A DNA stretch of 54,401 nucleotides from Candidatus Yanofskyibacteriota bacterium (GTDB lineage Bacteria > Patescibacteriota > Minisyncoccia > 2-02-FULL-40-12 > GWA2-44-9). A model generated the notes under the pieces. The model had not been told where the DNA came from. It did no database searches and saw nothing but the letters and a program-made list of their open reading frames with translations. The stretch spans positions 1-54,401 of the forward strand of contig JADLBM010000013.1 in the NCBI GenBank assembly GCA_020847715.1, given 5' to 3'. Below, piece after piece: positions 44,740 to 45,309 of this stretch. Positions within the stretch are counted from its first letter, which is position 1. Every line of letters begins with the position of its first letter. A program made the translations under genes and the position numbers.

Positions 44740-44775
44740 AAGATAAAAAGAAAGACCCTCCGTTCGGAGGGTCTT
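44740..44775 (-). terminator. Rho-independent terminator of the ncRNA (also converges with glycosyltransferase)
   Basis: aagaccctccg tt cggagggtctt, then UCUUUUUAUC on minus. Confidence 0.88.
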
Positions 44776-45274
44776 GGGTATGTACCGGCATGAGCCGGCG
44801 ATGAGGCAGGTCCGTGGCGCCTGCGCCGCCACGGAGTACGACCGACAAGCTTTTCGTCGCAACTTCCCTGTCCGCCACTCGGCCCTTCCGCAGGAGGAGG
44901 GCCCGACTTGTATCGCGACGGTTTGACGGGACCCAGTCGGCGCGCTGGCGTGCGCCCGAGTGCGCCGCCTGAGCGCGCCGACTGGGGTACGGCGGATGTT
45001 TTTGCTGCCAGGTACAAAAACCGGATCGTCGGTACGGGCGGAGTACTCTGCTCCATTATCCCCACGAGACCCGGAAAAAGCCAATAATCGGAGAAACTGT
45101 CGCGAACGAGTTCTACCCTGTCTTCTTCTACCGGCACGGAATCGTAATTTCACTGCCTGAATGCTGACTGGTTGTTTCCCGCCCAAAGCGGAAAACGAGG
45201 CGATTATTGGCTTTTTCCGGGGCTCGGAGGTGCTGAGCCCGGAGTATGGAATGTGCTCAAGACCGAAGTCTTGT
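44740..45274 (-). ncRNA. Candidate novel structured ncRNA, ~535 nt
   Basis: Own promoter (45281-45309), own terminator (44740-44775), 5' UUCG hairpin at 45258-45273, 21-bp stem 45070-45090/45201-45221, 14-bp stem 44932-44945/44973-44986, 9-bp stem 44811-44819/44827-44835; no credible ORF. Confidence 0.72.
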
Positions 45275-45280
45275 ACTGAC

Positions 45281-45309
45281 AGTATATCAGATGGCATCAA
45301 AACTGTCAA
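45281..45309 (-). promoter_or_regulatory. Strong sigma70 promoter of the ncRNA
   Basis: TTGACA-17-TATACT on minus strand. Confidence 0.85.

Follow-up and report, generated by a model that had tools for sequence, protein, structure and literature searches.

What kind of gene, if any, occupies the stretch that follows serS and ftsQ on a Patescibacteria contig? The window analysed here is the whole 54,401-nucleotide (nt) stretch of contig JADLBM010000013.1 from Candidatus Yanofskyibacteriota bacterium (assembly GCA_020847715.1), in which an earlier note, made from the letters alone, had proposed a stand-alone structured noncoding RNA of ~535 nt. Minus-strand positions 45309 to ~44745 carry what their sequence marks as a real, dedicated and separate gene for a folded noncoding RNA. 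The gene is not peculiar to the window genome but recurs through its class, and we consider it very probable that it belongs to a real, new family of RNAs acting in trans. As a complete explanation we lean towards a new trans-acting RNA family that is probably the scaffold of an RNA-protein particle.

The family has a core of ~100-160 nt at its 5' end, in which a closing helix P1 of at least 19 base pairs (bp) is followed by P2 and then P3, whose loop has a single A in its 5' strand and about four nt (GUUA, GAUA, AUUA) in its 3' strand. The strands of P1 are conserved in sequence (AAGCCAGUA / UAUUGGUUU), nucleotide identity being held both within paired P1 and at the P3 loop. The P1 rod (AAGCCARUA / UAUUGGYUU), the asymmetric P3 loop and an upstream promoter of its own, which together mark the new family, are all found in the window gene, which is laid out as follows.

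45281 to 45309, minus strand: sigma-70 promoter, TTGACA (45309-45304), 17-nt spacer, TATACT (45286-45281), matching 11 of 12 consensus positions.
45258 to 45273, minus strand: CAAGAC-UUCG-GUCUUG hairpin at the predicted 5' end, read from the sequence and seen in folds of the whole transcript and of the 5' part.
45245 to 45256, minus strand: degenerate copy of the leader motif, GCACATTCCATA, recognised by leader comparison; most relatives read AGUUCUUUACAUA.
45217 to 45242, minus strand: alternative hairpin P0 (45242-45235 with 45225-45217), read from the sequence, forming in the isolated core.
45065 to 45226, minus strand: conserved core closed by P1 (45226-45201 with 45090-45065), from models R1 and R2 (below) and P1 covariation in relatives.
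45174 to 45196, minus strand: side hairpin of 9-10 bp within the core (GUUUUCCGC...GGGCGGGAAAC), present genus-wide.
45120 to 45169, minus strand: P2/P3, GUC-AGCA-UUC-A-GGC (45169-45155) with GCC-GGUA-GAA-GAA-GAC (45135-45120), read from the sequence.
44776 to 45064, minus strand: variable GC-rich 3' domain, holding a 14-bp perfect stem (44986-44973 with 44945-44932).
44745 to 44775, minus strand: intrinsic terminator with U-rich tail, a block kept in the congener G002.

The promoter, the UUCG-capped hairpin and the 21-bp and 14-bp stems that the earlier note had described each lie at their place on the minus strand; the terminator and its U-tail are also there, although our scan counts 10 bp where 11 bp had been claimed. 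The terminator reads AAGACCCTCC-GAAC-GGAGGGTCTT at 44775-44752, then TCTTTTTATC. The perfect 21-bp stem (45221-45201/45090-45070) grows to a 26-bp pairing with one mismatch (45226-45201/45090-45065), and the asymmetric P3 loop has the form A / GGUA in the window (strands 45161-45155/45135-45126). Open reading frames overlapping the gene had been judged to lack protein-like character, and none has a Pfam match even at E <= 1. For the whole transcript the predicted folding energy is -249.9 kcal/mol, while shuffled versions average -197.7 (z = -7.4) and none of 100 does as well; the 5' part and the 3' part (terminator included) reach z = -4.0 and z = -5.6 when folded alone. Two promoter-like sites were observed in the region against 0.4 expected, the gene's own site being much the better; it is kept in both congeners. 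The UUCG-capped hairpin is identical in congener G002, and this form is absent from G001 and other genera.

DNA searches found a single copy of the gene in the window genome and homologs in those two congeners, Candidatus Yanofskybacteria SJ643 (G002) and a Candidatus Paceibacterota bin (G001), from whose names we take the class to be probably Paceibacteria. The window gene is flanked upstream by serS and ftsQ on the same strand and downstream by a convergent PMT-type glycosyltransferase. In G001 its neighbours are likewise ftsQ on one side and the convergent glycosyltransferase on the other; in G002 ftsQ and the RNA are split between two contigs, both close to a contig end, and the glycosyltransferase side is as in the window. 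Within the genus the promoter, leader and first ~150 nt are conserved and most of the 3' part is not, and compensatory pairs are already visible to RNAalifold in the three sequences. Model R1, which includes the window sequence, scores the window gene at 183 bits. Among 42 stretches from a pattern scan of contigs the only true members were the two congeners (177.9 and 145.4 bits), followed by a locus on an Okeania contig at 19.4 bits, and R1 gave no match beyond the genus in whole genomes.

Synteny gave the first access to the wider family. In other genera the layout recurs close to ftsQ, directly downstream of it or of murB, the gene that comes next: a near-consensus promoter, a leader like AGUUCUUUACAUA, and a long stem (GGGCUCG.AAAAGCCAGUA ... 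UAUUGGUUUUUCGAGCCC) enclosing UUC-A-GGC ... GCC-GUUA-GAA. Models R2 (from eight sequences) and R3 (from eleven), whose variable linkers were shortened and which served for searching only, extended the core to 17 more genomes of the window's family and to families f3, f4, f8, f10, f23, f30 and f34. Counting the three genus members, the total is 29 genomes from 20 genera and 8 families in one Patescibacteria class, a lower bound on prevalence as no more than 8-10 candidates per genome were scored in the searches of class and phylum. The gene was found in 20 of the 28 genomes examined from the window's family, where its usual place is after ftsQ or murB; across lineages the neighbours vary (ftsQ, murB, an RRM-type gene and others). 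R2 scores the window gene at 26.4 bits (E 5e-4) though it was built without the window sequence. The counts exclude wrong-strand model matches, a consequence of the near self-complementarity of P1, and L123 (G185), a false positive within a coding region.

Compensatory change supports the core. In 15 natural sequences aligned to R3, a fit to a model that favours its structure, 98.4% of pair cells are standard and 12 of 25 pairs change on both sides; no shuffle out of 500 reached the observed covariation, and sliding the partner by one column left about half the pairing. Helices P3a and P3b covary in 15 relatives. For P1, anchored at both ends, the effect of fitting should be small, and each of its pairs is kept in 19-21 of 21 members aligned to R2, by way of GC, AT, CG and GU forms. 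P2 variants seen by eye, outside these counts, include CUAU/AUAG, GUC/GAC, GACUAU/AUAGUC, CACUGA/UUAGUG and GUA/UAC. The promoter is an independent feature, as the search models contain none: one scoring 9-12 of 12 stands just upstream at 28 of 28 measured loci, and the predicted starts at these loci fall mostly 27-55 nt ahead of P1.

Beyond the core the RNA changes quickly. In the window the 3' domain comprises the last ~315 nt, is GC-rich and differs even among congeners; G000, the window genome, and G002 share just 87 nt of it. Across the window's family such domains measure ~170-480 nt, exceed their surroundings in GC at most loci, and show no alignment between genera and only short blocks within them. 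Core-only genes with a terminator close behind occur in G044, G032, G050 and G013, and in G070, G092 and G196 a U-run directly follows P1; because these short members end just after the core, we take the core as the functional minimum. The ~535-nt gene of the earlier note is therefore real but not a single conserved unit: the 5' domain alone defines the family and the 3' domain is a fast-changing extension. A hairpin motif resembling CCGG-AAUGGUGGAUUA-CCGG recurs in the 3' domains of L117, L119, L120 and L122 (genera g5 and g10) and is possibly a conserved piece of the otherwise variable arm. In the core of L125 (G022), ~155 nt are inserted after P3 and before the 3' strand of P1. Two genomes have two family genes each (L124 and L096 in G013; L146 and L099 in G043), in both cases a core-only copy elsewhere and a second copy after ftsQ; in G013 the core-only copy is L124, and L096, after ftsQ, has a stunted core and retains its 3' domain.

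The base strand of P1 is also complementary to a leader segment just upstream, giving the competing hairpin P0 in the majority of members that belong to the window's order; this complementarity has a shuffle p <= 0.05 at 18 of 28 loci. In the window the second strand of P0 (45225-45217) doubles as the base of P1, where it pairs near 45074-45065; the isolated core folds as P0 plus upper P1, and the whole transcript as the longer P1.

Is the RNA one already known under another name? The gene has no recognised Rfam family. A scan with Rfam 15 gave no match at the gathering threshold, and at E <= 10 only scattered matches far under gathering scores; 11 homologous loci had no Rfam match at E <= 0.5, and six outlying loci had none at gathering except adjoining transfer RNAs (tRNAs). 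The covariance models of RNase P RNA (RF00010) and transfer-messenger RNA (tmRNA, RF00023) do not match the gene, and the true copies are encoded elsewhere in the same genome (G000:C25:1624-2040, 109 bits, and G000:C7:33800-34154, 112 bits); housekeeping-like gene layout and size are what the new RNA shares with both. Ends of the tRNA-like kind that mark tmRNA were not found at the gene. The 6S model (RF00013) does not match the gene, and 6S was recognised in none of 45 genomes of the window's order, with five control genomes positive. Neither the window nor the homologous loci match the Rfam 15 models of OLE, ROOL or GOLLD. Two of the findings that the earlier note had said would speak against it, a known family and a lack of compensatory changes in homologs, were looked for: no known family was recognised, and compensatory changes are present.

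Signal recognition particle (SRP) RNA (RF00169) resembles the new RNA in being a rod with an asymmetric loop near its apical end, but the new RNA is without the SRP apical motif. The small SRP RNA was recognised in none of 15 carrier genomes, with 11 controls positive. The SRP reading fails because the complete, RNA-carrying genome G013 shows no Ffh: Ffh and FtsY were absent by motif, and Ffh also by tblastn with the Escherichia coli protein, in a genome where TrmD, L19 and GrpE were detected. An SRP RNA motif with the apical Ffh-binding site had no convincing match in G013 either. Rfam found no SRP RNA in the ~97% of G013 that was scanned, and the SRP pathway may have been lost in this lineage. 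A search of open-licence papers returned no description of an RNA like the one found here. It is well supported that the family is apparently undescribed, matching no described family that could be tested.

What, then, does the RNA do? The differing neighbours, together with the convergent next gene in the window, favour action in trans. Identity held within paired P1 and at the P3 loop suggests recognition of sequence as well as shape and points to a protein partner, and P0 competing with P1 suggests that folding is ordered as the RNA is transcribed. In our proposal the RNA would work in trans, as the RNA component of an RNA-protein particle. P0 would form first during transcription, strand exchange would close P1 once its 3' strand had been made, P1 and P3 would present a protein-binding site, and the 3' domain would be an accessory arm differing between lineages. 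The protein-scaffold mechanism, taken by itself, is tentative. More speculative is a particle specific to Paceibacteria and present class-wide, with a P0/P1 folding switch, a fast-evolving 3' arm and a central job in cells lacking other RNA machines, an idea prompted by the lack of recognisable 6S in the order and of recognisable SRP in complete G013.

An RNA-protein particle is favoured over a base-pairing small RNA and over a 6S-like regulator of RNA polymerase. In the former, the conserved single-stranded leader AGUUCUUUACAUA would be a seed that pairs with mRNA, stabilised by the rod and the 3' part. We find this unlikely. Many genera of the window's family do retain a short pyrimidine-rich motif close to the start, but conservation lies mostly in the rod rather than the leader; the window has a degenerate copy of the motif, and the outlying short members have none.

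A highly diverged or convergent 6S-like RNA, with P1 as closing stem, an opened middle and P2/P3 as apical stems, would bind RNA polymerase, P0 aiding release. In shape the new RNA is nearest to 6S: both have a stand-alone gene, a rod-like fold and closing and apical stems, the short members are of similar size (~150-250 nt), the promoter is strong, and the role could be vacant given the absence of recognised 6S from the order. As a class, 6S RNAs form rods opened by a central bubble, and their sequences are poorly conserved (PMC8876501). The new RNA nevertheless gave no Rfam 6S match at any threshold used, its helices are conserved in sequence, unlike those of 6S, and its 5' and 3' ends do not pair together as those of 6S do: it has a long leader with a competing hairpin and, in the window's family, a long 3' domain. 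The conserved A / GUUA loop is not known to have a counterpart in 6S, and on balance we judge this reading improbable.

GUUCUUUA resembles the boxA of other bacteria, and the gene might then yield an antiterminated RNA like ribosomal RNA (rRNA), with a role in ribosome production; this is very unlikely. Eight rRNA leaders from relatives, preceding whole or partial 16S genes, did not show the motif, though the boxA of these bacteria is not known and no 16S gene was found in the window genome. Long inverted repeats and the usual position after ftsQ or murB might suggest an ftsQ 3' untranslated region, a bidirectional terminator or a mobile inverted repeat, but we hardly credit a cis element or by-product that has its own promoter at every measured locus, shows compensatory changes, is single-copy in the genome by DNA search, has different neighbours in other families and, in the window, ends in a terminator of its own.

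Several points weigh against the RNA-protein particle that we prefer. The RNA of ~530 nt is predicted from sequence, and its protein partner is putative. Signs of P0/P1 exchange are faint or lacking among the shortest outlying members. Linkers were shortened in building R2 and R3, and the counted alignments were fits to these models. With them, searches of the class and phylum missed the window's own copy and are insensitive; the phylum-level sample gave no match outside the class in this insensitive search, which does not show absence from other phyla.

In size and orphan status the new RNA is nearest to OLE, ROOL and GOLLD, large ornate bacterial noncoding RNAs of poorly understood function with dedicated genes, among which OLE is of similar length (577 nt in Clostridium acetobutylicum; PMC12286853). 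It differs from them in that its conserved part is a short 5' core rather than the whole molecule, and in its chromosomal place after ftsQ or murB rather than by phage tRNA islands. The earlier note had offered a housekeeping or regulatory role; the gene could encode an RNA of either kind. A dedicated bacterial noncoding RNA gene of unknown function is an already known kind of gene; the family itself appears to be new, and its function might prove 6S-like.

Genomes of Patescibacteria are very small, and few RNA genes are known in them. Across the scanned ~97% of G013, Rfam recognised only tRNA, rRNA, tmRNA and RNase P. A structured RNA that 8 families of one class have retained, with near-consensus promoters at all its loci, is likely to have an important role; the sequence and models offer a handle on an RNA-based process in hard-to-grow cells.

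Two observations concern the rRNA genes of relatives. The rRNA leaders upstream of 16S in L126, L128, L129 and L131 have a common inverted repeat, ACCACGAUUG...AAUCGUGGU. In L130 (G012) and in L132 and L137 (G032), 16S insertions or introns are apparent because the 16S rRNA matches span >2 kb.
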